Source: Mercurialis annua (Eukaryota > Streptophyta > Magnoliopsida > Malpighiales > Euphorbiaceae). From it: DNA of 64,000 nucleotides. Of the stretch, positions 21,543-53,042 are shown in pieces. The stretch lies in assembly GCF_937616625.2 (NCBI RefSeq), contig NC_065570.1, positions 10,860,001 through 10,924,000 of the forward strand, read 5' to 3'. The position numbers and the translations under genes were made by a program. How positions within the stretch are numbered: position 1 is the first letter of the stretch; each line of letters opens with the position of its first letter. The notes under the pieces are model-generated. The model made no database searches. It was not told where the DNA came from and was given only the letters and a program-made list of their open reading frames with translations.

Positions 21543-22174
21543 TGATGGATACCGAATCCTACAGTAAATATAATGGAGTCGAGTCACAGGAGATCCACTC
21601 TCAGGTGATACCGGACTCCCCCTGAAGGTCCGAAAATATGAAGGAGACGCCGAATCCCTTAAGATTCGGTGATATGCCAACTGATACTGAATCCCTTGAG
21701 ATTCGGTGATATGCCAATAAAGACCGAATCCCACATGATCCGCCCAAAGCGCGTTAGGTCCGGGATTCGGGTAATCGACCAAGAATGGAAGTATTGTCCT
21801 ATTCGGACACAAACACTATATATGGAAGGATAAGCTCTACCTTAGAAAGATAAGACTATTTAGGAAGATGTTCCTAAATAGGACTCTTATCAGATTAATG
21901 TAGATCTCGACAAATCAGGAGAATCCCTACAATGTTGCCGAATCCCTACAAAGCAGGATTCACCTGCCTATTATGACTCTACAAGGTATATTCGACTACT
22001 ATAAAAGGAGCACGAGGTATGCCTAGAATCACAATTACATTCATATACACAAAACACTGCTCAAAGCTCTAAACTGACTTTAGCATCGGAGAGTTAATCG
22101 GACAACCACAGTCTGGTTAGCTTCTACCTTGTTTTGCAGGTCTTACTCACCGGCTCAGAAGGCAGACTCCATCA
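21543..22174 (+). repeat. 5' LTR of element A
   Basis: 632 bp, TG...CA ends. It contains two small hairpins with GATTCGG arms (CCGAATC..GATTCGG at about 21,650-21,670 and 21,690-21,710). A strong TATA box (TATAAAAG) lies at 22,000-22,007, so transcripts should start at about 22,030, leaving a short R-U5 of about 145 nt. Confidence 0.9.
22000..22007 (+). promoter_or_regulatory. LTR TATA box
   Basis: ACTACTATAAAAGGAGCACG is a near-consensus plant TATA box in the 5' LTR of A. The same site in the 3' LTR is at 40,171-40,177. Confidence 0.65.
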
Positions 22175-22193
22175 ATTGGCGCCGTCTGTGGAA
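22175..22193 (+). other. Primer binding site of element A
   Basis: ATTGGCGCCGTCTGTGGAA directly follows the CCATCA end of the 5' LTR. TGGCGCCGTCTGTGG is a common PBS in plant gypsy elements of the Tat/Athila group. The matching tRNA was not verified. Confidence 0.7.
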
Positions 22194-24943: not shown

Positions 24944-25330
24944 GAGTTAAAGATCAAACTCAGAAAAGGCAAAATCACCAAATAAGGCGAATCAACACGA
25001 AAAGGCTGATAGCCAAGAAAAATGAGTTGAAATTAACTCAAGAAAGGAAAAATTGCCGAATAAGGCGAATCGCCACAAAAGGCGGATAGCCAAGAAAAAC
25101 GAGTTTAAATTAACTCAAGAAAGGCAAAATCGCCGAACAAGGCAAATCGCCACAAAAGGCGTATAGCTAAGAAAAACGAATTTAAATTAACTCAGAAAAG
25201 GCAAATCGCCAAAAAGGAGTTTAGATTAACTCAAAACACAAAAAATAAAGAGTTTAGATTAACTCGAAATAAAAACAAAATAAAAGAGTTTAGATTAACT
25301 CTATAAAAGCAAAAAAACGCCAAGAAAAGG
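24944..25330 (+). repeat. Tandem repeat array in element A (~77-80 bp units)
   Basis: Units begin with GAGTT at 24,944, 25,024 and 25,101, and in decayed form at 25,178. Each reads roughly GAGTTTAAATTAACTC, AAGAAAGGCAAAATCGCC, then AAGGCGAATCGCC and AAAGGCGGATAGCC. Later only the short palindromic GAGTTTAGATTAACTC is repeated (25,219-25,300). Such arrays are common between the coding part and 3' LTR of Tat-type elements. Confidence 0.75.
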
Positions 25331-25486: not shown

Positions 25487-27309
25487 CTACTTGACACGGT
25501 CCTTGACACGGTCCTTAGATATCTTGTCAAGAAGGCCACGAGCGATGGCCTGGGGATCCAACCCATTAACTCCGGAAAGATCAATATTAGGATTCTGCTC
25601 CAGAAGTTTCCTCCCAATCGCAAGGCGATACTCGCTTATCAAAGCAGAATAAAAAGCCTTCGTATCAAGTAAACGGATGTGAAGATCTTCAACCTCTGAC
25701 CTTAGTTTAGCCCTCTCCCCACCAACAAGGTTATTGATTCGATAAGCTCCTCAATCTCTTGAGTCAAGTCATTGGTTTTCTTCTCGATCACTTTGACTTG
25801 GTGATCGTTAATCGCATCCTGCGCCTTAAGTTGCGCCAAAAGGGAATCATGCTCTTCCAAAGATGCCTTCAACTTTGCCCTCTCAGACTCGGAAGTCGCC
25901 AAAAGAGAAGATAGACGCTCGACCTCCTCCTCAGCACACTGACGGCGGTCATTCAATACCAAAACAGATTAAAGAGCCTACAACACCAAAAATAGGTCAG
26001 TAAGGAAACAACAGAATCTAAAAACATTATATTCAAGAAAGAAAACACTTACAGAGAAACCATGAAAACAAGCCAGATCGGAAAGCTCTTGACCCGGCCT
26101 AGAACAAAACCATGTGACATCATCAGGAATCGCCAAAGTTCGGATGTATTCCGCCAACACTCTAGGATTCAGCAAACTAGCGGGATCCTGACCTTCGACC
26201 CATTGCACCAAATCTGGGGCAGAAGAAGAGCTTCCAGGAAGACTCTCTCTCGATGGAGAATCATCGCCAACTCGACGTCTCTTTCTAGACGGAGAATCTA
26301 GGTTTCGACCCAAGGAAATCTCTTCCGAATCAGCAACAATCAGCCCACCTGAATTCACATCCCCAACTCCCCCGGAGACAGTAAATGATGCTAGAGGGGG
26401 AGGTAGAGATGGGACCGCCTCATCACCTACTGGATCAACCAAGTCATCATCATCTACAACAATAACCCCATCGCCCGCAGGCAATGCTATCTCGACGGGA
26501 ACGATGGGAACATCAGCAGGAATTACATCCACATCAACATCGCCAGGAATAATGTTGGCAATGTGAGCGTCAGGACCGCCCATCGGAACGTCCAAATCTA
26601 CTTGAAATCCGGAAAGGAAATCGTTAGAAGAAGAAGACATCCTACAAAACAAACATCAAAAGAACTTAAGCAAATTAATATACCTTGAATAAAGGAGTAG
26701 CAAAGATCCGCCAAGCCTCGAGGAGGATCCTGCGAAGGAAACCATCGATGCCGAAGATGACTATTAACCAAGACATCTAGGACAGGACGCTGAAGAGCAC
26801 CATAGAATGATATGTCGAAAGCAAGTGTTGACTCAAATAAACTTAAAGGAGACGGACAACTCCGGACTTGATGAGAAGAAAAACCATCCGAAAAATGAAG
26901 AAAAGAAAAGTTATGGTAAACAATAAAGAAACGTCTCCGCCAGCGACTGGTTAGGCAAGGAAGATAAATACGAGATCGCCCTCCTCTGTCAAGGGCGAAA
27001 ACGAAACAACCATCGCATTTCCTAAAGTCTACGAAATAATACAACACGTTAAGAGAAGGGGCATAACCCCGAAGCCTACACGCCTCCGAAAAAGCAAGCA
27101 CTACTTTAATCGTATCGGGATAAAGTTGTCCCAGAGCAACCTTTAAATCCCTGCACACTTCTACTAAAAACGAATCTAAGGGAAACCTAAGACCAGCAGC
27201 AAACTGCTCCTCAAAAAGAACCGCCCTACAAGAGGAACCCGGAGAATCGGAGGCAGCCATATCGGCACCAGGTAATATTACCCTATAATCGGAAGGAAGG
27301 TTATACTTA
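25487..27309 (-). pseudogene. Antisense gene of element A, 3' part ('putative gypsy type transposon' family)
   Basis: Opposite to gag-pro. The frame at 26,690-27,309 carries VLFEEQFAAGLRFPLDSFL, LGQLYPDTIKVVLAF and LRGYAPSLNVLYYFV, which fit the plant 'putative gypsy type transposon' domain (PF04195, by pattern). The next frame (25,978-26,640) has an acidic low-complexity stretch and the nuclear-signal-like PSRKRRR. The last part (25,487-25,940) is a coiled coil (CAEEEVERLSSLLATSESER and on), with a one-base frameshift near 25,735, ending at TAG 25,487-25,489. GT-AG pairs suggest introns near 26,640-26,683 and around 25,940-26,040, but the first does not keep the frame. Element B has separated this part from its first codons at 39,092-39,185. 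Confidence 0.7.
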
Positions 27310-30300
27310 TGTCACGACCCGATTTCTCGAGCCGCAACCAGCGCTAGGGAATGGGAGTGGTAGCTCCGAAACCCGTAGCAAGCCTAAAAACCTGTGTAAA
27401 TTTTTCGTAAATCAAATCATTTTTTTCATATATCAAAATACATGTGACCCCATTTTACAAAAATATCAGAGTTAAAATGCGCTAGTCAAATACATAGACA
27501 AAAAAATCTAGACTACTGCGGACTGCTAGAATGAAAACCTTCTTTCACTTGTTGTGCAAATGACTTCCGAGAATTAAAACTTCGGAAGCTTGACTTTCCA
27601 AATAATATCATGCTATCCCTGAAAAATGGGAGGAGCAACGGGGTCAGTATAAAACTAAGTGAGTTCACCAAATTACACGCAATATCACATAAAGGGTTAA
27701 AACCGTTGAAAACCCATTTTATATATAGAAAATACTCTTTTAAAATCATATTGCATACCCTCTTTACTTTCCTTCATATCTCTTTGTTTATTTCATAAAC
27801 TTATAGTTTATACGTATTTGACATCTTCGATTTCTTATTATGGTTTTGATATTTTTCTTCTCTCGTTTTGTTTCATTAATTTTCGACCGAATCTTAAATC
27901 TTAGTTTATATCATCATGATTCTAAGTCGAACTAAATCATTGGCAAGTCTCTTGTGACTTGATCCTTATGGTTGGGTCCCGAGATAGTTCAACCGAGTTA
28001 CCTATAACCATATGGTACAGTCCCGAGATAATTCAACCGAGTTACTTGTACCATTTCTCAATCCCAAACGATCGATAGGAGTCCCGAGATAATTCAACCG
28101 AGTTACTCCTTAGACACGGGTCCCGAGATAGTTCAACCGAGTTACCTTCGTGTCTGCATTCGGACTCTGCACCCTGCAGGTCTTTTGAACTTAACTGTCG
28201 ATTCATATGATTCCTATTGACATTTAATAGGAGTAATTGTTCACATTGTGTCTCGATCTTGTTTCGTATTGATTCTCGAGGTATCACACTTACTTTTTAT
28301 TTCGTATGAGTTCCGAGGATTATCATCGAGAATGGATGAGATACAGGTCCCGGGATAATTCTACCGAGTTCAACCTTGTATCTCAGTTCTTATTATTTTG
28401 TGCACCATAGTACAATTCTCATTTTACGTTTTTGTATTTTTCGTTCTGTTGTATTGATCCTTTATGGACCATGGCATGCACATTACAATCTACAAGCATA
28501 CATCTATAACACACGCACGTATGGGTATTTATTATGTTTGATAGTACATATCGAAATGTACTATATTTCCTTATTCATATTTGATCTAATACTTGTATAT
28601 TATTCGATATTCGATTTATTAGTACATATAGGAATGTACTGTACTTTTCTTATTTATATTTGGTTCAATTCACATTTTATTACTTTACCCATCCCCGGTG
28701 TTTAAATATATATACTCTTTTCATTTACTTGTATTATTATCAAAATAGCACAATACGATAAAACTTCATTTTCAAAACATACATATATATGCATTTTAAG
28801 AACATACATTTAAACATAAAAATATTCATATAGCTTTCGTATTAAAATACGTAGCTTTACGAATATTAGCGAGTAATTTAAAGTGTACTAACCACTTGCT
28901 ATCCAAATTCTTCAAATAATTATGACGATATCTCGATCCGTTTGCCTCAAACCTTTTTCGATAGTCGCTCGTCCGATCTACGCAAATATAATAATAGCAA
29001 GAATTAATAAAATTCTAACTATTATTAACTTAACCAAAAATTATGTTTCTAGCCAACTTCGGCTATCAAAACCGCTTACTTAAAATAGTCCGACCCCTAA
29101 ACAAAATTGACATTCTTAAAGTTTAGAACGTCGCCTACAACTTTCGTTTAGGTCTCGGACCATGAAACGCACCCGAAGGTGTCGAAAACAAGCTCATAAG
29201 TTATTTCCTTGGAGTTGTTTACAAGTGCAGGGCAGACTGCACAACAAAATGTTCTGTCCAAAATGAACATCCTAGAGTCCGATTCAACAAAAACTCAAAC
29301 TTAGACAATTATAGTTAACATCCTAAAGTTTCTGTATCAACAAACAGAACTTGATTTGGACTTATACAGCCCGAGATATTGCCTTTGCAATATCGCTGTT
29401 TTGCAAGACATTTTCTGCAAAACGATAACTAGTTTACGTAAACTTATTACGCAACGAGGCCTATGAAATTTCATCGATACACACATTCTGAAGCAACACA
29501 ATCCAGTCATCCTATACCCCTTAACATCAAACATGATTCAAGACTTAAAATTGTTCAAACTTACTTGAACAAGAATTACATATCAATACCAAATCATCAT
29601 CTCATTTTCGATCAAACTTTCATCAATTAACACAATTCATATTCAGCTCTATCCTCATAAAACTCATGCCTAACACTATCAATTCATCTCTTAACATCAA
29701 CCTTATTACCCCTTTTACCTTTAACAATTTCAATCAAACTCACTTAACACAAACTATTTCTTATAATCAATTCCTCAAACACATAGAGCTCATGTTTAAT
29801 GCCTAATTCATATTCTAAAGCATCACACAAATACCTCAATCAAAAGCCACTAAATTTCAGCAACCTCACCTTGATTGAAGCCTCAAATCCAAAGGGTCTA
29901 GCTCCAAGATTCATCATCAAAATTGGTCCATGGAAGCTAATAAACACCTATGATTATCAAACACCATAAAACCTCAATTTCTCAACCAAAACCGAAATGA
30001 AAACTCTGAAACCCTAATTATACACTGAGCTTATTACCTTAAATTTCTGGTCTCAATCAGTAGAGGTCGTCTTCCTCTTTCCGTGGCCGTAAGAATCGCA
30101 TCAATCGGACCACAAATGAAAAAGTTATGGTGATTTCAAGTTTTGTTGAATGTTCTTCAATGGAGGAGTAGGATGAACGATTTTGCTAGCTGAATTTGAT
30201 TTTTTTGCTGGTTTAAATCAAATGAAAAGGGTTTATATATTATTGGCAAAGTGCCTCCTTTAATCCTTGAAGTTGCCACCTCCATACCTTTCAATTTCTA

Positions 30301-30977
30301 ACTTTTCTTTCGTCCAATTTAATCCACTAATCGCTTTATCATTCGATTCTCGATAAATCCCGTATTATTTATTTCCAAATAAATAATTTTGATTCCATAT
30401 CTTATAGCTTTACTTTCCAATAATTTTTTTTTGGCAATTTTGGCCAAAAACGCTCAAATTTCCATTTTGAGCTAACTTGCACTTTTCTCACTTTTTCGTC
30501 CAATTTTCATATTAATGACTATCGATAACCACTTTATCGATATTATTTTCTTATCTTGAGAAAATAGAGTAAAACACAACTTCCTCCGGAAGTTTGTGGT
30601 TAAAAGTCCACATTAGTCCTTAAAGTGGCTAATTTACACTTTAGCCCTTATTCTTAATTAATCGTCAAACTTTCTCCTAAAACGATTTCGTATACTTACA
30701 AAACTTTGACGATCATTTATTAATAATATTTCACGGACCTTGACGTGAATATTATTAACTCTGGCTTTCCAACTTATTTTATTTTATTCCCTTTTTGTCT
30801 CTATTAAATCCAATTGCTCGCCTAATAATTTTCAATTATTATTTTATGATAGTTCCAATAGACCCACTTCGGTCTAAGTCCTTATTATCCAATCTTAATC
30901 TGATATTCTCGTTCTTAATCTTTACAATTATGCCTCGTGGCACTACACGTAATACCTCAAAAATTTAGGTTATTACA
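27310..30977 (-). repeat. Element B 3' LTR (complete, 3668 bp)
   Basis: On the plus strand it runs TGTCACGACCCG...GGTTATTACA. Compared with 35,424-39,091 I found about five differences in 3.67 kb, so the copies are very young or recently duplicated. The hairpin series at 27,966-28,385 is in the part nearest the sense 3' end. Confidence 0.9.
27966..28385 (-). other. Series of five hairpins with constant loop and variable stems (B LTR)
   Basis: Five copies of a ~25-nt core (plus strand CCCGAGATARTTCAACCGAG, the last copy more diverged) each sit between different complementary arms: TATGGTT/AACCATA, ATGGTACA/TGTACCAT, AGGAGT/ACTCCT, AGACACG/CGTGTCT, TGAGATACA/TGTATCTCA (27,967-28,012; 28,012-28,054; 28,077-28,110; 28,112-28,155; 28,337-28,385). 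A further hairpin (CCTATT..AATAGG) is at 28,213-28,232. Copies are at 36,080-36,499, and the first two units are at 33,873-33,970. In sense orientation the series lies 0.66-1.08 kb from the LTR 3' end, possibly in the genomic RNA leader. Confidence 0.8.
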
Positions 30978-33216
30978 ATCTTCCCCCCTTACAAAAATTC
31001 GTCCTCGAATTTTCATAATCTCCTAATATCACTTAACCAATCCTTGTTCAAACCTTATTCACTTCCTTCCACACTTCCGCTGCGATACTCTGATTAGTTA
31101 TTCACTAACTGTTGACTTTACAATTAGGTTTATACGGTCATCTCGATATACTTATCGAGTAACTTCTTATGCTAACAATCCTAACCATCTTGTTACTTCT
31201 TGATTCATAACTATTATGAATCAATTCTCTTTATTCGACTTTTCTGAACAACACATGTTTGTTCGTAGGGTTCTTATCCCCTGATGTAACTAACTTCTAT
31301 GTTTGATTTCCTCATCCTAGAGGTAAACGTTCTTCGAGTTTAAACGTGGCCGCTATCACTTTACATGTTTGTAAAGTAGCGTCGTTGTTTTTTTTGTATT
31401 TAATATACAAGACCGCTTTAGAGATTTGCAATCCAAATCTCGATATATTGCGATTCGCATTACACTACTCGTCATTCTATATACTTGTCGTGTTACATAC
31501 GTATGTTTTCATATAGGCCTAACAAGATGATCAGTCTTGTTCTATGCCTCTATATACAGAGTCACTGTCTGAGCTTACTTACGTTGGAAAACTCATCCGT
31601 TTAAAATCACAATACTTTTCATTTCTCAAATCATGTCATAATTATGCGCCGGTGTGATGACTGCTCTCATCACAAGAGTTGCAATGACACTCCTCTTTTC
31701 ATTTCCAGACAAGCACAATGTATATGATGCATGGCCTATTAATGAATGCAATATGGATGTAGTGATGCAATTCTATTCGTGTCAATGCGATGTTTTTATG
31801 ATTCGTGTCCGGGCACAATTATGTCTTTTCAAAACATTTCATTTTGATCAAATACTTTTATTTTCATAAAACGGGGTTTACGTAAGTTGCTCTCGACATA
31901 AGACTCTGCACTATCTATTAATTATCTTTCTATCGTTCGCAACTATTTACATTCTTTACACATGTAAAGATGTAACTCTTTTCGCCTGATTCTGACGTCG
32001 TTCGAAAGACACGTCCTAAACGTTCGTGTTTACACTAGGCTAGCTCAAAAGGTCTGATCACTTTCGAGCTTCTAGTGTTTGGACTTCATGATGTTTATCT
32101 CGGTATATGGTTGTGTCTAACTAGAAGTCGTCGCGACAAACTCCGTCTTTTAGGAAAAAGATTGTTTCGTGTTTCCCGTGGTATCAAACTACTCGGGATG
32201 TGGGCATTCCTTCATGTGGTAACCTTGTTGTCCACATCGAAGACATATGTATGTCCTAGCTTGACACCTAGTCGAGCATCTCCTATCGCATAACGAGTGT
32301 ATGAAACTTGCATAGTTTGAACTTCCTTGTTCCGATGACAAACTAATAGTGCTAGCCCTTTTGGCTGCCTTCCCTTATCTATCTTTCCTATAAATCCAAC
32401 TATGTCGCCTTTCTTAAGTCTTGAGAGCATTTCGCCCAGCATAGGCTTAGCAAACTTTCATCATTGAATCATAAGAAACTATTTCTATTCATAACAATCG
32501 ATTACAATATATAAATTTTATGTATCGTATAAATTATCACAGGCTTACATACCTGTGAGCATATCACTCTCCTGAGTGATCGCGCTGCAAACATACATAT
32601 CTTATTTGTTACATTACATCACTCGTATAATATCCAATCCAACCAATTTATAATTCAATCATTGTCCATAACAATATTCATACATCATATGAGTCTCGAG
32701 AGTATATAACTCTTCATAGACTATAGATACTTGAAAGCATATTGCTTACTCGAGTAAACACACACATATTTTGTGCTCGCACACATCTAACTCGACTCCT
32801 AATAGCACATAAGGGAGAGGACGCTTTTGTAAAACTTTTGAAAAATCGATGAAAACGTTGATAACGTTCAAAAGACATGACTGGAAATCCCTATAATCCG
32901 CAGTAGTTCTTAGCTTAACCTAGTGACATCATACCTAGGAACTACAGACATCAATCGTATACAGGCAATGGCCTATGAATCTAAACCAGGCTCTGATACC
33001 ACCTTTTTTTCAGGTGCGGTCGTAACCGATATGGACTCCGTCCTATCCCATAGGGTGACATCCATATGTACCTATCAGAGCACGCATTACCATACGCTCT
33101 AGGGCGGAGAGCCTCACTTCGTCACAGATCATGAGTGAGAGTTCCCTAGAATCGGAACGGTCCCGGGAGCCCCGCTCACCAGCCGAACCTCCCATCCTTT
33201 GCTCTGATACCACCTT
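30978..33216 (-). pseudogene. Element B internal region with gag relic
   Basis: The only coding trace is near 32,200-32,440: on the minus strand a CCHC zinc knuckle, CLRCGQQGYHMKEC, at 32,204-32,245, soon followed by a stop. This is a Gag nucleocapsid motif. The rest shows no open frame, and no protease, reverse transcriptase or integrase motifs. The PBS (minus strand TGGTATCAGAGC, complementary to the 3' end of initiator tRNA-Met) lies just left of 33,217. Confidence 0.75.
33200..33216 (-). other. Primer binding site of element B
   Basis: Plus strand GCTCTGATACCACCTT is the complement of AAGGTGGTATCAGAGC, the classic initiator-tRNA-Met PBS. It abuts the LTR end TGTCACG at 33,217. A second GCTCTGATACCACCTT at about 32,991-33,006 indicates a partial duplication of the leader. 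Confidence 0.85.
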
Positions 33217-33973
33217 TGTCACGACCCGATTTCTCGAGCCGCAACCGGCGCTAGGGAATGGGAGTGGTAGCTCCGAAACCCGTAGCAAGCCTAAAAACCT
33301 GTGTAAATTATTCGTAAATCAAATCATTTTTTTCATATATCAAAATACATGTGACCCCATTTTACAAAAATATCAGAGTTAAAATGCGCTAGTCAAATAC
33401 ATAGACAAAAAAATCTAGACAACTGCGGACTGCTAGAATGAAAACCTTCTTTCACTTGTTGTGCAAATGACTTCCGAGAATTAAAACTTCGGAAGCTTGA
33501 CTTTCCAAATAATATCATGCTATCCCTGAAAAATGGGAGGAGCAACGGGGTCAGTATAAAACTAAGTGAGTTCACCAAATTACACGCAATATCACATAAA
33601 GGGTTAAAACCGTTGAAAACCCATTTTATATATAGAAAATACTCTTTTAAAATCATATTGCATACCCTCTTTACTTTCCTTCATATCTCTTTGTTTATTT
33701 CATAAACTTATAGTTTATACGTATTTGACATCTTCGATTTCTTATTATGGTTTTGATATTTTTCTTCTCTCGTTTTGTTTCATTAGTTTTCGACCGAATC
33801 TTAAATCTTAGTTTATATCATCATGATTCTAAGTCGAACTAAATCATTGTCAAGTCTCTTGTGACTTGATCCTTATGGTTGGGTCCCGAGATAGTTCAAC
33901 CGAGTTACCCATAACCATATGGTACAGTCCCGAGATAATTCAACCGAGTTACTTGTACCATTTCTCAATCCCA
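33217..33973 (-). repeat. Element B 5' LTR remnant (757 bp)
   Basis: Matches the first 757 bp (plus-strand order) of the other B LTRs, then stops at the CCAAA junction. It differs at about six positions from each of the two complete LTRs, which differ from each other at about two in the same stretch. It keeps the first two hairpin units. Confidence 0.85.
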
Positions 33974-33975
33974 AA

Positions 33976-35423
33976 GATGCCTTCAACTTTGCCCTCTCAG
34001 ACTCGGAAGTCGCCAAAAGAGAAGATAGACGCTCGACCTCCTCCTCAGCACACTGACGGCGGTCATTCAATACCAAAACAGATTAAAGAGCCTACAACAC
34101 CAAAAATAGGTCAGTAAGGAAACAACAGAATCTAAAAACATTATATTCAAGAAAGAAAACACTTACAGAGAAACCATGAAAACAAGCCAGATCGGAAAGC
34201 TCTTGACCCGGCCTAGAACAAAACCATGTGACATCATCAGGAATCGCCAAAGTTCGGATGTATTCCGCCAACACTCTAGGATTCAGCAAACTAGCGGGAT
34301 CCTGACCTTCGACCCATTGCACCAAATCTGGGGCAGAAGAAGAGCTTCCAGGAAGACTCTCTCTCGATGGAGAATCATCGCCAACTCGACGTCTCTTTCT
34401 AGACGGAGAATCTAGGTTTCGACCCAAGGAAATCTCTTCCGAATCAGCAACAATCAGCCCACCTGAATTCACATCCCCAACTCCCCCGGAGACAGTAAAT
34501 GATGCTAGAGGGGGAGGTAGAGATGGGACCGCCTCATCACCTACTGGATCAACCAAGTCATCATCATCTACAACAATAACCCCATCGCCCGCAGGCAATG
34601 CTATCTCGACGGGAACGATGGGAACATCAGCAGGAATTACATCCACATCAACATCGCCAGGAATAATGTTGGCAATGTGAGCGTCAGGACCGCCCATCGG
34701 AACGTCCAAATCTACTTGAAATCCGGAAAGGAAATCGTTAGAAGAAGAAGACATCCTACAAAACAAACATCAAAAGAACTTAAGCAAATTAATATACCTT
34801 GAATAAAGGAGTAGCAAAGATCCGCCAAGCCTCGAGGAGGATCCTGCGAAGGAAACCATCGATGCCGAAGATGACTATTAACCAAGACATCTAGGACAGG
34901 ACGCTGAAGAGCACCATAGAATGATATGTCGAAAGCAAGTGTTGACTCAAATAAACTTAAAGGAGACGGACAACTCCGGACTTGATGAGAAGAAAAACCA
35001 TCCGAAAAATGAAGAAAAGAAAAGTTATGGTAAACAATAAAGAAACGTCTCCGCCAGCGACTGGTTAGGCAAGGAAGATAAATACGAGATCGCCCTCCTC
35101 TGTCAAGGGCGAAAACGAAACAACCATCGCATTTCCTAAAGTCTACGAAATAATACAACACGTTAAGAGAAGGGGCATAACCCCGAAGCCTACACGCCTC
35201 CGAAAAAGCAAGCACTACTTTAATCGTATCGGGATAAAGTTGTCCCAGAGCAACCTTTAAATCCCTGCACACTTCTACTAAAAACGAATCTAAGGGAAAC
35301 CTAAGACCAGCAGCAAACTGCTCCTCAAAAAGAACCGCCCTACAAGAGGAACCCGGAGAATCGGAGGCAGCCATATCGGCACCAGGTAATATTACCCTAT
35401 AATCGGAAGGAAGGCTATACTTA
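33976..35423 (-). pseudogene. Second copy of the middle of the antisense gene
   Basis: Near-identical copy of 25,862-27,309 (offset 8,114; one difference noticed near the right end, T versus C in GGAAGGTTATACTTA). It lacks the 3' end beyond the junction at 33,971-33,975 and is fused there to B LTR sequence. It is flanked on the right by ACTTA (35,419-35,423) and the solo LTR. Confidence 0.85.
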
Positions 35424-38400
35424 TGTCACGACCCGATTTCTCGAGCCGCAACCGGCGCTAGGGAATGGGAGTGGTAGCTCCGAAACCCGTAGCAAGCCTA
35501 AAAACCTGTGTAAATTTTTCGTAAATCAAATCATTTTTTTCATATATCAAAATACATGTGACCCCATTTTACAAAAATATCAGAGTTAAAATGCGCTAGT
35601 CAAATACATAGAAAAAAAAATCTAGACTACTGCGGACTGCTAGAATGAAAACCTTCTTTCACTTGTTGTGCAAATGACTTCCGAGAATTAAAACTTCGGA
35701 AGCTTGACTTTCCAAATAATATCATGCTATCCCTGAAAAATGGGAGGAGCAACGGGGTCAGTATAAAACTAAGTGAGTTCACCAAATTACACGCAATATC
35801 ACATAAAGGGTTAAAACCGTTGAAAACCCATTTTATATATAGAAAATACTCTTTTAAAATCATATTGCATACCCTCTTTACTTTCCTTCATATCTCTTTG
35901 TTTATTTCATAAACTTATAGTTTATACGTATTTGACATCTTCGATTTCTTATTATGGTTTTGATATTTTTCTTCTCTCGTTTTGTTTCATTAATTTTCGA
36001 CCGAATCTTAAATCTTAGTTTATATCATCATGATTCTAAGTCGAACTAAATCATTGGCAAGTCTCTTGTGACTTGATCCTTATGGTTGGGTCCCGAGATA
36101 GTTCAACCGAGTTACCTATAACCATATGGTACAGTCCCGAGATAATTCAACCGAGTTACTTGTACCATTTCTCAATCCCAAACGATCGATAGGAGTCCCG
36201 AGATAATTCAACCGAGTTACTCCTTAGACACGGGTCCCGAGATAGTTCAACCGAGTTACCTTCGTGTCTGCATTCGGACTCTGCACCCTGCAGGTCTTTT
36301 GAACTTAACTGTCGATTCATATGATTCCTATTGACATTTAATAGGAGTAATTGTTCACATTGTGTCTCGATCTTGTTTCGTATTGATTCTCGAGGTATCA
36401 CACTTACTTTTTATTTCGTATGAGTTCCGAGGATTATCATCGAGAATGGATGAGATACAGGTCCCGGGATAATTCTACCGAGTTCAACCTTGTATCTCAG
36501 TTCTTATTATTTTGTGCACCATAGTACAATTCTCATTTTACGTTTTTGTATTTTTCGTTCTGTTGTATTGATCCTTTATGGACCATGGCATGCACATTAC
36601 AATCTACAAGCATACATCTATAACACACGCACGTATGGGTATTTATTATGTTTGATAGTACATATCGAAATGTACTATATTTCCTTATTCATATTTGATC
36701 TGATACTTGTATATTATTCGATATTCGATTTATTAGTACATATAGGAATGTACTGTACTTTTCTTATTTATATTTGGTTCAATTCACATTTTATTACTTT
36801 ACCCATCCCCGGTGTTTAAATATATATACTCTTTTCATTTACTTGTATTATTATCAAAATAGCACAATACGATAAAACTTCATTTTCAAAACATACATAT
36901 ATATGCATTTTAAGAACATACATTTAAACATAAAAATATTCATATAGCTTTCGTATTAAAATACGTAGCTTTACGAATATTAGCGAGTAATTTAAAGTGT
37001 ACTAACCACTTGCTATCCAAATTCTTCAAATAATTATGACGATATCTCGATCCGTTTGCCTCAAACCTTTTTCGATAGTCGCTCGTCCGATCTACGCAAA
37101 TATAATAATAGCAAGAATTAATAAAATTCTAACTATTATTAACTTAACCAAAAATTATGTTTCTAGCCAACTTCGGCTATCAAAACCGCTTACTTAAAAT
37201 AGTCCGACCCCTAAACAAAATTGACATTCTTAAAGTTTAGAACGTCGCCTACAACTTTCGTTTAGGTCTCGGACCATGAAACGCACCCGAAGGTGTCGAA
37301 AACAAGCTCATAAGTTATTTCCTTGGAGTTGTTTACAAGTGCAGGGCAGACTGCACAACAAAATGTTCTGTCCAAAATGAACATCCTAGAGTCCGATTCA
37401 ACAAAAACTCAAACTTAGACAATTATAGTTAACATCCTAAAGTTTCTGTATCAACAAACAGAACTTGATTTGGACTTATACAGCCCGAGATATTGCCTTT
37501 GCAATATCGCTGTTTTGCAAGACATTTTCTGCAAAACGATAACTAGTTTACGTAAACTTATTACGCAACGAGGCCTATGAAATTTCATCGATACACACAT
37601 TCTGAAGCAACACAATCCAGTCATCCTATACCCCTTAACATCAAACATGATTCAAGACTTAAAATTGTTCAAACTTACTTGAACAAGAATTACATATCAA
37701 TACCAAATCATCATCTCATTTTCGATCAAACTTTCATCAATTAACACAATTCATATTCAGCTCTATCCTCATAAAACTCATGCCTAACACTATCAATTCA
37801 TCTCTTAACATCAACCTTATTACCCCTTTTACCTTTAACAATTTCAATCAAACTCACTTAACACAAACTATTTCTTATAATCAATTCCTCAAACACATAG
37901 AGCTCATGTTTAATGCCTAATTCATATTCTAAAGCATCACACAAATACCTCAATCAAAAGCCACTAAATTTCAGCAACCTCACCTTGATTGAAGCCTCAA
38001 ATCCAAAGGGTCTAGCTCCAAGATTCATCATCAAAATTGGTCCATGGAAGCTAATAAACACCTATGATTATCAAACACCATAAAACCTCAATTTCTCAAC
38101 CAAAACCGAAATGAAAACTCTGAAACCCTAATTATACACTGAGCTTATTACCTTAAATTTCTGGTCTCAATCAGTAGAGGTCGTCTTCCTCTTTCCGTGG
38201 CCGTAAGAATCGCATCAATCGGACCACAAATGAAAAAGTTATGGTGATTTCAAGTTTTGTTGAATGTTCTTCAATGGAGGAGTAGGATGAACGATTTTGC
38301 TAGCTGAATTTGATTTTTTTGCTGGTTTAAATCAAATGAAAAGGGTTTATATATTATTGGCAAAGTGCCTCCTTTAATCCTTGAAGTTGCCACCTCCATA

Positions 38401-39091
38401 CCTTTCAATTTCTAACTTTTCTTTCGTCCAATTTAATCCACTAATCGCTTTATCATTCGATTCTCGATAAATCCCGTATTATTTATTTCCAAATAAATAA
38501 TTTTGATTCCATATCTTATAGCTTTACTTTCCAATAATTTATTTTTGGCAATTTTGGCCAAAAACGCTCAAATTTCCATTTTGAGCTAACTTGCACTTTT
38601 CTCACTTTTTCGTCCAATTTTCATATTAATGACTATCGATAACCACTTTATCGATATTATTTTCTTATCTTGAGAAAATAGAGTAAAACACAACTTCCTC
38701 CGGAAGTTTGTGGTTAAAAGTCCACTTTAGTCCTTAAAGTGGCTAATTTACACTTTAGCCCTTATTCTTAATTAATCGTCAAACTTTCTCCTAAAACGAT
38801 TTCGTATACTTACAAAACTTTGACGATCATTTATTAATAATATTTCACGGACCTTGACGTGAATATTATTAACTCTGGCTTTCCAACTTATTTTATTTTA
38901 TTCCCTTTTTGTCTCTATTAAATCCAATTGCTCGCCTAATAATTTTCAATTATTATTTTATGATAGTTCCAATAGACCCACTTCGGTCTAAGTCCTTATT
39001 ATCCAATCTTAATCTGATATTCTCGTTCTTAATCTTTACAATTATGCCTCGTGGCACTACACGTAATACCTCAAAAATTTAGGTTATTACA
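35424..39091 (-). mobile_element. Solo LTR of element B
   Basis: Complete LTR with ACTTA on both sides (35,419-35,423 and 39,092-39,096) and no internal region. In its first 757 bp it is closest to the 27,310 LTR, as expected if it derives from a duplicated B copy that lost its interior by LTR-LTR recombination. Confidence 0.85.
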
Positions 39092-39185
39092 ACTTAAAAT
39101 AGATATCTAAGACTTCACTCCTCCGAAGCTTTGATCTGGTAAAAGCCATAGTAGCGCATGCATCTTCCACTCGACTAAGAGGCAT
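39092..39185 (-). pseudogene. Antisense gene of element A, 5' exon part severed by element B
   Basis: Starts at ATG 39,183-39,185 (MPLSRVEDACATMAF...) and runs to the TSD ACTTA at 39,092-39,096. Across the B insertion the frame continues without a shift into 27,309, so the antisense gene was open here when B inserted. Its promoter would lie in 39,200-39,712, next to or inside the 3' LTR of A on the opposite strand. Confidence 0.7.
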
Positions 39186-39712: not shown

Positions 39713-40345
39713 TGATGGATACCGAATCCTACAGTAAATATAATGGAGCCGAGTCACAGGATATCCACTCTCAGGTGATACCAGACTCCCCCTGAAGGTC
39801 CGAAAATATGAAGGAGACGCCGAATCCCTTAAGATTCGGTGATATGCCAACTGATACCGAATCCCTTGAGATTCGGTGATATTGCCAATAAAGAACGAAT
39901 CTCACATGATCCGCCCAAAGCGCGTTAGGTCCGGGATTCGGGTAATCGACCAAGAATGGAAGTATTGTCCTATTCGGACACAAACACTATATATGGAAGG
40001 ATAAACTCTACCTTAGGAAGATAAGACTATTTAGGAAGACGTTCCTAAATAGGACTTTTATCAGATTAAGGTAGATCTCGACAAATCAGGAGAATCCCTA
40101 CAATGTTGCCGAATCCCTACAAAGTAGGATTCACCTGCCTATTATGACTCTACAAGGTATATTCGACTACTATAAAAGGAGCACGAGGTATGCCTAGAAT
40201 CACAATTACATTCATATATACAAAACACTGCTCAAAGCTCTAAACTGACTTTAGCATCGGAGAGTTAATCGGACAACCACCGTCCGGTTAGCTTCTACCT
40301 TGTTTTGCAGGTCTTACTCACCGGCTCAGAAGGCAGACTCCATCA
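39713..40345 (+). repeat. 3' LTR of element A
   Basis: 633 bp, same ends as the 5' LTR, followed by TSD GTTCT at 40,346-40,350. About 16 differences from the 5' LTR by eye, i.e. older than elements B and C. Confidence 0.9.
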
Positions 40346-40355
40346 GTTCTCTACT

Positions 40356-43794: not shown

Positions 43795-44650
43795 TGTAAT
43801 ACCCCAAAATATTTAATTATTTAATTGGGCCACGTGTCCAATTTCGAGTCGCCAGAGTGGCGATATCGGAAAGTTTTCCGATGAAATTAAGATAAATAAG
43901 TTTTAGTAGGTCGGTTTTGGAAAAGATTATATACGAGAAATTAAGGTTATATTTCAATTCTAAAACTAGAATTGGAATTAAAAGGAAAAATGTCAAGAAA
44001 AGTCCAAAATAAAGTATAGGGACCAAAGTGGTAATTTAGCCACTTTGTATCGAAAATGGAAATTTTAGGTTTTGACGGGAAAGTATTAATATCGAGCTTC
44101 GTATTATTTATAGGATATAAATAATACGTATATGTTATGATTAAAGTATAAATTGATTTAGTTATGGACTAAATCAAACAAAAGAAAAGTTTAAAAGAAA
44201 TTTTATAACAAAGAAAGAAAAGGAGGACCAAACTGAACCTTTTACCATAATATATATAATTAAACCTCATTTGAAAGTAGAAGGGATCAGATAGAAGAAA
44301 CCTCCAGAAGCTATTTCAATCGGCGATCAACTTCGACATCACGCCGTTTCTCCGTTCGTCGTCCGATTCGAGTGATTCTCGCGGCAATCTCTTCGGAATT
44401 CAAGCCTCTACCTTCCCCGAGCATCAAAACAAGGTGAGGTATACGTTTTTATGATGAAAAATGAATAATAGATGGCTGTTTGGTGTGGCGCCGTTACGGT
44501 TTGAGTCGAAATTACGTATAACAAGTAAAAATCGTTGTTTTTGAGCGTTTCGCAAGTGGGTTTTGATGTATATACGTATATAAGCATGTCGGGACTGTGT
44601 TGGACGGATTTCAGTGTGAGAAATCGACGGAAGAGGCCGAAAACGAGTGC

Positions 44651-44872
44651 CTCACGTCGTGAGACATTGTCTCACGACGTGAGACACGTCTCGCGACGCG
44701 AGACGGTGTCTCGCGACGCGAGACAAGGTCTCACGACGCGAGACCAAGTCTCGCGACGCGAGACTGACTCTCACGTCGTGAGACCCCCCTCTCACGACGT
44801 GAGAGCAGCTAGGCATGATGTGCCTAGCCGTCGCCGACTCCCGTTGGTCGTGTCGAGGTCCGACACGACCTA
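44651..44872 (+). repeat. Array of about ten consecutive palindromes (CpG-rich)
   Basis: Eight 13-17-bp palindromes, spaced 2-5 bp apart, follow the pattern TCTC-R-CG-A/T-CG-Y-GAGA: CTCACGTCGTGAG (44,651), GTCTCACGACGTGAGAC (44,669), GTCTCGCGACGCGAGAC (44,688, 44,708, 44,748), GTCTCACGACGCGAGAC (44,729), CTCTCACGTCGTGAGA (44,768), CTCTCACGACGTGAGAG (44,789). Two larger hairpins follow: GCTAGGCA/TGCCTAGC and GGTCGTGTCG/CGACACGACC. The 3' LTR repeats the array at 51,537-51,758. Confidence 0.9.
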
Positions 44873-45234
44873 GCTCAACCCATAAACATTATATGAACTC
44901 CGAAAACATGTGAAGCGAGTGGCGAACTTAATAATGTGGAATAAGGTTCACTTTTAGGTACTAAACGCGTATTTGACTTTTTAATGTGTCAGACGCGTCA
45001 GCGAGCAGTGAGGGCACCAGACGAGGTCTAGTGCGAGCATATCATTACATAGACCACATCATTACTTGGATAGCGGTTACTGTGAGTTGTACTTTTACTT
45101 TCACGTATTATATATTAAAACTATTATATATATATATATATACTGTTTTCACGCATCGCATTATATAAAATTGATTGAAATGTTATATGCTTTATTAATT
45201 TCTATATATGAGAACTAGTATGCGATCCGAAGAA

Positions 45235-45450
45235 ACTAGCTACCTATTGGGTGTCAATAGGCTGTGTGATCACCAGTATCGAGTCAGTCTAGTATGATTG
45301 CATTGAGAAATGACTTGACACAGCTGGGAGCTGTTGATGAATACGAAACTTACGATTGGGTATATGATTTAGATACGCAGAGTGAACTCGGCTACAGTGT
45401 AGCCTGGAAGTCCCCGTATCTAGTGGCTGGGCCACCAGCGAGTTGGACTC
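45235..45450 (+). other. Hairpin region of the C LTR with counterparts in element B
   Basis: CCTATTG/CAATAGG at 45,243-45,261 has the same arms and spacing as the B hairpin at 28,213-28,232. AGATACG/CGTATCT at 45,371-45,422 encloses GAACTCGG...GTCCC and parallels B unit 5 (GATACA/TGTATC enclosing GAACTCGG...GGGACC). Also GGCTAC/GTAGCC at 45,390-45,404 and GCGAGT/ACTCGC at 45,438-45,452. The distance to the LTR 3' end (0.7-0.9 kb) is the same in both families. Confidence 0.7.
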
Positions 45451-46160
45451 GCAATTGATATTTACGATTGGGTTGAATGATATATGATTATTTGAGAGAT
45501 GTGTCGCATGCTAGGATATTAGTTTTGTACGGATCAAATACCTGTTTATATGTTTTATATTAACATTTTCTTGAGATGCGATGCTATGTTTCTATATTAA
45601 TACTGTTAGTAAATGTCAACTCACTCAGTATTTCCCCAAATACTGACCCCTCACCTTTGATGTCTTTCAGGTGCTTAGCTTGTGGACTTAGCTAGAGGCC
45701 AATTTTGGAGTGCAGAAGTCATCTGTATATGTTAGTTTATGACTTCTGTTAATGCTGCAGTAGTGGTCCTGTGTCAACAGAATAGTAGCCTAGCCAGCAG
45801 TTTATTTTGATTGTATATATCAATTGCTATCTTTGTTTATATGCTTTTTGATAGGCTACGTACGTTGTATATAATCTACGGCCCCAGATGCCGGTGAGAT
45901 ATTTGAGATACTAACTGATGTATATAGTACCGCGAGGCCAGTTCGTACAGGGTACGGTAACTAGAGCCCGCGAGGTTTTGAAACAGTTAGTGTATATATT
46001 TGGTTACATGTTACATATGTATATTTGCTTCTGTTGTTTGTTATTATTTGTTTATTATGTGCGAAAAATTAATTGTGGTTTAAGGCTTGCTACGGGTTCC
46101 GGAGCTACCACTCCCGTTCCCTAGCGCCGGTTGCGGCTCAATATTTTGGGTCGTGACAAT

Positions 46161-46175
46161 GTTGGTATCAGAGCA
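46161..46175 (+). other. Primer binding site of element C
   Basis: GTTGGTATCAGAGCAG follows the LTR end by two to three bases and fits initiator tRNA-Met. The leader then repeats GAGCAGTTTGGTCCAGTTAC at 46,171 and 46,222. Confidence 0.88.
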
Positions 46176-50680: not shown

Positions 50681-53042
50681 TGTAATACCCCAAAATATTT
50701 AATTATTTAATTGGGCCACGTGTCCAATTTCGAGTCGCCAGAGTGGCGATATCGGAAAGTTTTCCGATGAAATTAAGATAAATAAGTTTTAGTAGGTCGG
50801 TTTTGGAAAAGATTATATACGAGAAATTAAGGTTATATTTCAATTCTAAAACTAGAATTGGAATTAAAAGGAAAAATGTCAAGAAAAGTCCAAAATAAAG
50901 TATAGGGACCAAAGTGGTAATTTAGCCACTTTGTATCGAAAATGGAAATTTTAGGTTTTGACGGGAAAGTATTAATATCGAGCTTCGTATTATTTATAGG
51001 ATATAAATAATACGTATATGTTATGATTAAAGTATAAATTGATTTAGTTATGGACTAAATCAAACAAAAGAAAAGTTTAAAAGAAATTTTATAACAAAGA
51101 AAGAAAAGGAGGACCAAACCGAACCTTTTACCATAATATATATAATTAAACCTCATTTGAAAGTAGAAGGGATCAGATAGAAGAAACCTCCAGAAGCTAT
51201 TTCAATCGGCGATCAACTTCGACATCACGCCGTTTCTCCGTTCGTCGTCCGATTCGAGTGATTCTCGCGGCAATCTCTTCGGAATTCAAGCCTCTACCTT
51301 CCCCGAGCATCAAAACAAGGTGAGGTATACGTTTTTATGATGAAAAATGAATAATAGATGGCTGTTTGGTGTGGCGCCGTTACGGTTTGAGTCGAAATTA
51401 CGTATAACAAGTAAAAATCGTTGTTTTTGAGCGTTTCGCAAGTGGGTTTTGATGTATATACGTATATAAGCATGTCGGGACTGTGTTGGACGGATTTCAG
51501 TGTGAGAAATCGACGGAAGAGGCCGAAAACGAGTGCCTCACGTCGTGAGACATTGTCTCACGACGTGAGACACGTCTCGCGACGCGAGACGGTGTCTCGC
51601 GACGCGAGACAAGGTCTCACGACGCGAGACCAAGTCTCGCGACGCGAGACTGACTCTCACGTCGTGAGACCCCCCTCTCACGACGTGAGAGCAGCTAGGC
51701 ATGATGTGCCTAGCCGTCGCCGACTCCCGTTGGTCGTGTCGAGGTCCGACACGACCTAGCTCAACCCATAAACATTATATGAACTCCGAAAACATGTGAA
51801 GCGAGTGGCGAACTTAATAATGTGGAATAAGGTTCACTTTTAGGTACTAAACGCGTATTTGACTTTTTAATGTGTCAGACGCGTCAGCGAGCAGTGAGGG
51901 CACCAGACGAGGTCTAGTGCGAGCATATCATTACATAGACCACATCATTACTTGGATAGCGGTTACTGTGAGTTGTACTTTTACTTTCACGTATTATATA
52001 TTAAAACTATTTTATATATATATATACTGTTTTCACGCATCGCATTATATAAAATTGATTGAAATGTTATATGCTTTATTAATTTCTATATATGAGAACT
52101 AGTATGCGATCCGAAGAAACTAGCTACCTATTGGGTGTCAATAGGCTGTGTGATCACCAGTATCGAGTCAGTCTAGTATGATTGCATTGAGAAATGACTT
52201 GACACAGCTGGGAGCTGTTGATGAATACGAAACTTACGATTGGGTATATGATTTAGATACGCAGAGTGAACTCGGCTACAGTGTAGCCTGGAAGTCCCCG
52301 TATCTAGTGGCTGGGCCACCAGCGAGTTGGACTCGCAATTGATATTTACGATTGGGTTGAATGATATATGATTATTTGAGAGATGTGTCGCATGCTAGGA
52401 TATTAGTTTCGTACGGATCAAATACCTGTTTATATGTTTTATATTAACATTTTCTTGAGATGCGATGCTATGTTTCTATATTAATACTGTTAGTAAATGT
52501 CAACTCACTCAGTATTTCCCCAAATACTGACCCCTCACCTTTGATGTCTTTCAGGTGCTTAGCTTGTGGACTTAGCTAGAGGCCAATTTTGGAGTGCAGA
52601 AGTCATCTGTATATGTTAGTTTATGACTTCTGTTAATGCTGCAGTAGTGGTCCTGTGTCAACAGAATAGTAGCCTAGCCAGCAGTTTATTTTGATTGTAT
52701 ATATCAATTGCTATCTTTGTTTATATGCTTTTTGATAGGCTACGTACGTTGTATATAATCTACGGCCCCAGATGCCGGTGAGATATTTGAGATACTAACT
52801 GATGTATATAGTACCGCGAGGCCAGTTCGTACAGGGTACGGTAACTAGAGCCCGCGAGGTTTTGAAACGGTTAGTGTATATATTTGGTTACATGTTACAT
52901 ATGTATATTTGCTTCTGTTGTTTGTTATTGTTTGTTTATTATGTGCGAAAAATTAATTGTGGTTTAAGGCTTGCTACGGGTTCCGGAGCTACCACTCCCG
53001 TTCCCTAGCGCCGGTTGCGGCTCAATATTTTGGGTCGTGACA
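50681..53042 (+). repeat. Element C 3' LTR (2362 bp)
   Basis: Near-identical to the 5' LTR. Differences noticed: GACCAAACTG versus GACCAAACCG, a shorter TA run, GTTTTGTACG versus GTTTCGTACG, AAACAGTTAG versus AAACGGTTAG, TTATTATTTG versus TTATTGTTTG. Followed by TSD ATATG. Confidence 0.9.

Follow-up and report, generated by a model that had tools for sequence, protein, structure and literature searches.

The 5′ leaders of retroviruses carry packaging stem-loops, i.e. hairpins with exposed conserved loops. To our knowledge, the RNA recognition of non-autonomous plant retrotransposons has been little explored, and an array of hairpins with constant loops and variable stems, such as that described here in the LTR of a retrotransposon designated element B, offers a concrete test of it. 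The exposed conserved loops of this array could bind Gag in the same way as those of the retroviral stem-loops.

Hairpin (palindrome) arrays in plant LTRs are already known. In the Sireviruses (PMC2829016), the palindromic RM boxes are clustered, hairpin-forming repeats located upstream of a TATA box, and in these respects they resemble the array of element B. In the Sireviruses, however, it is the palindromic arms that are conserved, whereas in element B the centre of each unit is conserved and the arms vary. The RM boxes are further defined, in the same report, by a CGG-CCG core upstream of the TATA box; the cores of four of the five units of element B (U1-U4) contain no CGG...CCG pair, and the arms differ between units. 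According to PMC3601003, the LTRs of plant Metaviridae could not be modelled because of their length variation.

A further related system is represented by hairpins of rRNA and other RNA genes, in which mutation patterns point to template switching as a process that makes perfect stems in one event; the authors of that work (PMC8794818) argue that the process can mend stems while the loop is kept. The array of element B shares with these hairpins the perfect stems, the simultaneous two-sided changes and the preserved loop, and differs from them in being an array in an LTR.

No description of the loop-constant, stem-variable form was found in the literature searched, most subscription journals being outside it. 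The explanation that we prefer, tentatively and at less than even confidence, is that the array acts in cis as a repeated RNA hairpin, within a transcript derived from the LTR of a non-autonomous plant LTR retrotransposon.

Structure of elements B and C

The window (the whole stretch of DNA analysed, 64,000 nucleotides) has a G+C content of 32.7% and reads as plant DNA. Element B is located on the minus strand and is represented by three LTR copies:

27310..30977, minus strand, LTR1 of element B, the 3′ LTR (3668 bp, running from 30977 to 27310), with the ends TGTAATAACC...GTCGTGACA
33217..33970, minus strand, LTR2 of element B, a partial (truncated) 5′ LTR that carries U1 and U2 only; the PBS follows in sense
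35424..39091, minus strand, LTR3 of element B, the second full LTR copy, with ACTTA on both sides

Element B is an LTR retrotransposon, as judged from (i) the TG...CA ends, (ii) the PBS (TGGTATCAGAGC, 33212-33201), (iii) the polypurine tract (G-rich, GGGGGG), placed just upstream of LTR1 in sense, before 30977, and (iv) the sequence ACTTA, which occurs beside LTR1 (at the left edge on the plus strand) and flanks LTR3. Since ACTTA is present on either side of LTR3, this copy is a solo LTR. The two full copies, LTR1 and LTR3, differ at 5 of 3668 bases, none of them inside the hairpin units, and LTR2 differs from LTR1 at 6 of 754 bases, one of which lies in U1. Of the frames listed (90 aa or more), only those of 91 and 107 aa overlap the internal part of the element (33216 to 30979), at its edge, so element B looks non-autonomous. 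No long pol frame was listed in B or C.

A 5.1-kb segment, 25857-30978, recurs at 33971-39092 with 99.9% identity, the flank and the LTR both being doubled. Either unequal exchange or the joining of two haplotypes in the assembly would produce this duplication. Its junction (33971-33975), with 5 bp of common sequence (CCAAA), lies between U2 and U3, within the array of hairpins. Of the frame that adjoins LTR1 in the flank (26598-27260, minus strand), 91% of the length aligns at 89% identity with an uncharacterised protein of Mercurialis annua; the frame also shows a weak match to Pfam Transposase_28 (25.2 bits, cut-off 26.2). Element B and its flank are enclosed by the LTR pair of another element, A (21543-22177 and 39713-40348, 97% identical, then TGGCGCCGTCTGTGG), which contains at 24957-25217 a tandem array of a 77-bp repeat with several GGC...GCC inverted repeats.

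Element C is oriented on the plus strand, with its second LTR at 50681-53042 and the first as follows:

43795..46158, plus strand, first LTR of element C; ATATG is present on both outer sides of the element

Both LTRs, the tract, the flanking ATATG and a PBS (46163-46174) identical to that of B identify C as an LTR retrotransposon. Its frame of 374 aa matched only Retrotrans_gag, at 13.3 bits, i.e. under the cut-off of 24.1, and was weakly similar (42% over 28%) to a protein of Mercurialis annua. Together with the protein match in the flank of B, this makes Mercurialis (Euphorbiaceae) or a close relative the probable host. The LTR ends and the PBS of B and C look Ty3/gypsy-like and suggest a putative label as chromoviruses of the Tekay/Del-like type, whereas the Sireviruses are Ty1/copia elements.

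The last 100 bp of the LTRs of B (27310-27407) and C (46062-46158) are approximately 84% identical, and most of the remainder is hardly alignable; the global alignment is poor outside these 100 bp and one short hairpin (H1, see below), with one further stretch (64%) near the 5′ end. Both LTRs also contain (B, 27618-27648, minus strand; C, 45642-45671, plus strand) the sequence ACTGACCCC, after which come a stretch rich in pyrimidines and TTTCAGG; this block resembles the consensus of a branch point and a 3′ splice site. In C, ACTGACCCC is preceded by a 9-bp hairpin (TCAGTATTT/AAATACTGA).

Hairpin units of the element B array

The array spans positions 28385-27967, and its units, in sense order 5′ to 3′, are:

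28337..28385, minus strand, unit U5, arms TGAGATACA/TGTATCTCA, inner CUCGG/CCGGG
28112..28155, minus strand, unit U4, arms AGACACG/CGTGTCT
28077..28110, minus strand, unit U3, arms AGGA(GT)/(AC)TCCT
28012..28054, minus strand, unit U2, arms ATGGTACA/TGTACCAT
27967..28012, minus strand, unit U1, arms TATGGTT/AACCATA; base 28012 is common to U1 and U2

The initial annotation had described five copies of a constant core, each enclosed by a different pair of complementary arms. The five copies (27976-28368) and all of the arm pairs named were confirmed. The constancy of the core holds for U1-U4, which share CTCGGTTGAAYTATCTCGGGAC, whereas U5 differs from it at two places. As regards the arms, they do vary from unit to unit, but those of U2, U4, U5 and the related unit of C (see below) are visibly related, so that five unrelated stems are not present. 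The orientation had to be reversed: the PBS and the polypurine tract place element B on the minus strand, and the sense hairpin is therefore the reverse complement of the one originally written.

The arms comprise 9 (U5), 7 (U4), 4 (U3), 8 (U2) and 7 (U1) contiguous Watson-Crick pairs; the 4 pairs of U3 are those outside the core, and 6 are obtained when GT/AC at the core edge is counted. With up to three mismatches allowed, the window contains 12 occurrences of the core, all of them in the three copies of the B LTR (5, 2 and 5).

Counterparts in the LTR of element C

A unit related to those of B, together with several short hairpins, is present in the LTR of C:

45370..45422, plus strand, counterpart unit in the first LTR of C, arms TAGATACG/CGTATCTA, with GAACTCGG on the 5′ side and inner GGCTAC agt GTAGCC
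28213..28231, minus strand, hairpin H1 of B, CCTATT aaaTGTC AATAGG (written CCTATT...TGTCAATAGG), common to element C (45243-45261)
28167..28179, minus strand, hairpin H2 of B, CTGCA GGG TGCAG; in C, ACAGCT GGG AGCTGT at 45320-45334, order conserved
27944..27961, minus strand, hairpin H4 of B, following the array, CAAGTC ACAAGA GACTTG; in C, GCGAGT TGG ACTCGC at 45438-45452

Because GAACTCGG occurs once in each C LTR, element C shows one unit of this kind. Its presence in an LTR that aligns well with that of B only over the last 100 bp and the 64% stretch argues for a repeated RNA hairpin.

It had been proposed that C contains a counterpart of U5 and, equally far from the 3′ end of the LTR, the hairpin CCTATT/AATAGG (H1). 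The latter is indeed found at a nearly equal distance: its start is separated from the LTR end by 922 nt in B and by 916 nt in C. The assignment to U5 is doubtful in view of the distances and order of the units: the unit of C starts 789 nt from the LTR end, compared with 1076 nt for U5 and 846 nt for U4, and it comes after H1, as does U4, whereas U5 stands upstream of H1. By position and order, the C unit fits U4 better than U5.

The hairpins H2 and H4, and the one that precedes ACTGACCCC, are suggestive of a larger domain common to B and C. They were rejected as proof of such a domain, since the density of short hairpins is no higher than background: short perfect hairpins (score 9 or more) number 3 in the B tail and 7 and 8 in the C tails, with a window mean of 4.3 per kb. 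In comparison with 200 shuffles of their own sequence, C had 7 hairpins (shuffle mean 1.0, maximum 5) and B had 3 (shuffle mean 1.2, maximum 5).

Pairing and covariation of the arms

The matching of the arms was assessed by combining each left side with each right side, scoring the longest arm that could form, and comparing the true pairing with permutations. For the five B units the true arm lengths sum to 35, the best of 120 re-pairings (mean 22.2). With the C unit included the sum is 43, which is reached by only 1 of 720 permutations, the true one. Random sets of five sites in the B LTR gave a mean of 18.7 and a maximum of 30, and none of 8000 reached 35. The matching thus counts in favour of a repeated RNA hairpin. 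A long match (8) was also obtained for the cross pair of the U1 left and U2 right arms, which have sequence around CATATGG in common.

Covariation was counted for U2, U4, U5 and C only, since the arms of U1 and U3 could not be aligned with the rest, and the register of these four rows from a single window was picked by hand. A MAFFT alignment of all six units was discarded for this purpose, as differences in bulge size caused the arms to be misplaced. Seven pairs, counted outward from the inner end, are Watson-Crick in all four units (28 of 28 cells); the eighth is paired in three of them, U4 having a C/A mismatch there. Variation affects four of the seven pairs and is two-sided in each, without G-U or mismatched intermediates, and in all six pairwise comparisons the left and right arms differ at the same pairs. 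These two-sided differences also argue for a repeated RNA hairpin, and the changes on both sides of a near-constant core, noted initially, are in this way supported within the window.

The same pattern might have arisen by tandem duplication of one or two hairpins followed by drift, the arms seeming to covary mainly through descent of the units. The recognisable sequence common to the arms of U2, U4, U5 and C, and the motif ATGGT shared by those of U1 and U2, are what such an origin would leave. Drift alone would break pairs, yet all 28 aligned cells are paired, and so are the arms of U1 and U3, which are unlike those of the other units. Expansion of the array by duplication and drift is therefore unlikely, and as the whole explanation of the covariation we regard it as highly improbable.

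The strongest rival is template switching, by which a DNA polymerase or the reverse transcriptase of the element would copy one arm from the other at an imperfect inverted repeat, so that the stems are maintained without function. This process, which we consider possible if rather unlikely as the sole cause, would make the arms perfect and change both of them at once while leaving the loop as it was, without selection on RNA; in the four units that could be aligned, every change in the seven aligned pairs is two-sided. The mutation patterns, perfect stems formed in one event and retained loop described in PMC8794818 are in agreement with it, although the same text rates the evidence for maintenance of short stems as circumstantial. 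Template switching alone, moreover, gives no reason for the near-unchanged core in five units or for the related core in C, and DNA copying would have converted to Watson-Crick the G-U pairs that persist in the inner helix. Both processes can be true: switching would supply the changes, and selection on the core would keep the unit.

The sample comprises six units from two families, the B copies in the window being near-identical, and the full B LTRs show no differences within the units, which counts against a repeated RNA hairpin. The only substitution of a B copy inside a unit (in U1 of LTR2, equivalent to 28003) counts in its favour, as the LTR2 form gains one predicted pair over LTR1. Elements of this type usually have many copies in the host genome; if this is the case here, the array provides a natural case in which to separate RNA selection from template-switch repair.

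Strand and folding

In sense, the five B units fold into one predicted architecture, consisting of the variable stem, GGU/ACC or GU/AC, unpaired bases, CUCGG/YCGGG and a 10-nt loop. A small 5′ bulge occurs in four of the five units; the unpaired bases are AA, with more in U5, whose loop also contains one extra predicted pair. The inner helix and loop read CUCGG-UUGAAYUAUC-UCGGG, with one variant in U5. In U1-U4 this helix holds U-G and G-U, and consequently the isolated core finds no antisense fold (-1.3 kcal/mol in sense versus 0.0 in antisense), whereas the values for the isolated U5 core are -3.9 and -3.2. Complete units form alternative inner pairs in antisense; their stability is greater in sense, by 2.5 (U5), 3.0 (U4), 3.0 (U3), 1.1 (U2) and 2.6 (U1) kcal/mol. 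When 301 nt were folded in sense, U4, U3, U2 and U1 appeared as local hairpins of the same architecture, and this fold, together with the sense stability of all five units, is counted for a repeated RNA hairpin. It is the shared architecture of the predicted folds, and not their stability, that favours the sense strand for the B units.

Other folding results count against this explanation. With shuffled sequences as control, the region 27940-28240 has a z-score of -0.46 in sense and -2.01 in antisense, and the C region one of -1.35 in sense. In a scan with 120-nt windows, no sense window over the B array or the C unit went beyond z -2.5, whereas antisense windows did so over U5 (z -3.8 at 28330) and over the C unit (z -3.5 at 45499 and z -3.3 at 45439). 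The C unit, whose inner helix (GGCTAC/GTAGCC) is strand-neutral, is likewise stabler in antisense (-20.2 versus -18.6, a difference of 1.6).

Lower antisense scores are what a strand-neutral palindrome would allow, and they are consistent with an array acting at the DNA level: either tandem U3 sites for a plant DNA-binding protein or a Sirevirus-like palindromic cis-region, which would also be a source of small RNAs via host silencing. We regard this as unlikely. According to PMC10760457, more small RNAs map to the hairpin regions of Copia elements in maize, while Ty3 elements of maize show no obvious peak of such structures. Binding sites need no variable arms that remain complementary, and the conserved repeat of the Sireviruses is, as presented in PMC2829016, the palindrome itself.

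Position relative to candidate promoters

TATA-like sequences near the B array lie on both sides of it: 28714 (with others at 28789 and 28658) precedes all units, and 27727 is 240 bp downstream of the array. In C they are found upstream of the unit (45109-45164 and 45203), with more at 45814, 45868 and 45993. If the upstream boxes are used, the units would lie in the R-U5 leader; if the downstream box is used, they would lie in U3, and hence in the 3′ end of the genomic RNA. Since the B array is placed between the candidate boxes at 28714 and 27727, it may belong to U3 instead of forming the structured leader that the initial annotation proposed. A TATA-like sequence downstream of the repeats is the order reported for the repeated motifs of Sireviruses in PMC2829016, which speaks for the DNA-level alternative.

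Possible role of the array

If the array acts as a repeated RNA hairpin, the region would be transcribed, and selection would be the cause of the paired arms. Each unit would present one inner helix and a 10-nt loop on a stem in which pairing matters and the exact sequence may drift. With five units, compared with one in C, the RNA of B could be multivalent for one binder, which would most likely be Gag from a partner element, acting in packaging, or else a host RNA-binding protein. A broader proposal, which we consider doubtful, is that the LTRs of this group encode a modular hairpin domain with which a non-autonomous element would compete for the Gag of its partner or a host RNA-binding protein, and that B has amplified the unit to win this competition.

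Related sequences and a second hairpin array

Exact patterns of the core, the sense core, the LTR 3′ end motif and the LTR end with the PBS gave no matches in viral contigs. The H1 pattern occurred in 36 viral contigs, which was taken as chance; BLAST of five LTR sequences against 40 loci, with the low-complexity filter on, revealed nothing at E 1e-3. Occurrences of the LTR 3′ motif in 4 bacterial contigs were also ascribed to chance, the sole similarity to the LTRs at E 0.01 being the 19-base pattern itself in one contig. A distant-mode search of the plasmid collection gave no match, and no related plant DNA was found in the collections searched (viral, genome contigs and plasmids). With Rfam 15 there were no matches at the gathering score in the window, and none with E up to 1 in 27310-28500.

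The LTR of C contains another array, at 44651-44803 (copy at 51537-51689), composed of eight palindromes CTC[A/G]CG[A/T]CG[T/C]GAG. At base 4 and its partner, four of them have A-T, three have G-C and one has a mismatched A/C. Like the array of B, it is a tandem set of LTR hairpins, with one pair that switches between A-T and G-C from unit to unit; in contrast to the array of B, the units are strict 13-bp palindromes, one of them mismatched, spaced approximately 20 bp apart and lacking a long conserved loop. Its folds have z-scores down to -8.7 (sense) and -10.2 (antisense).
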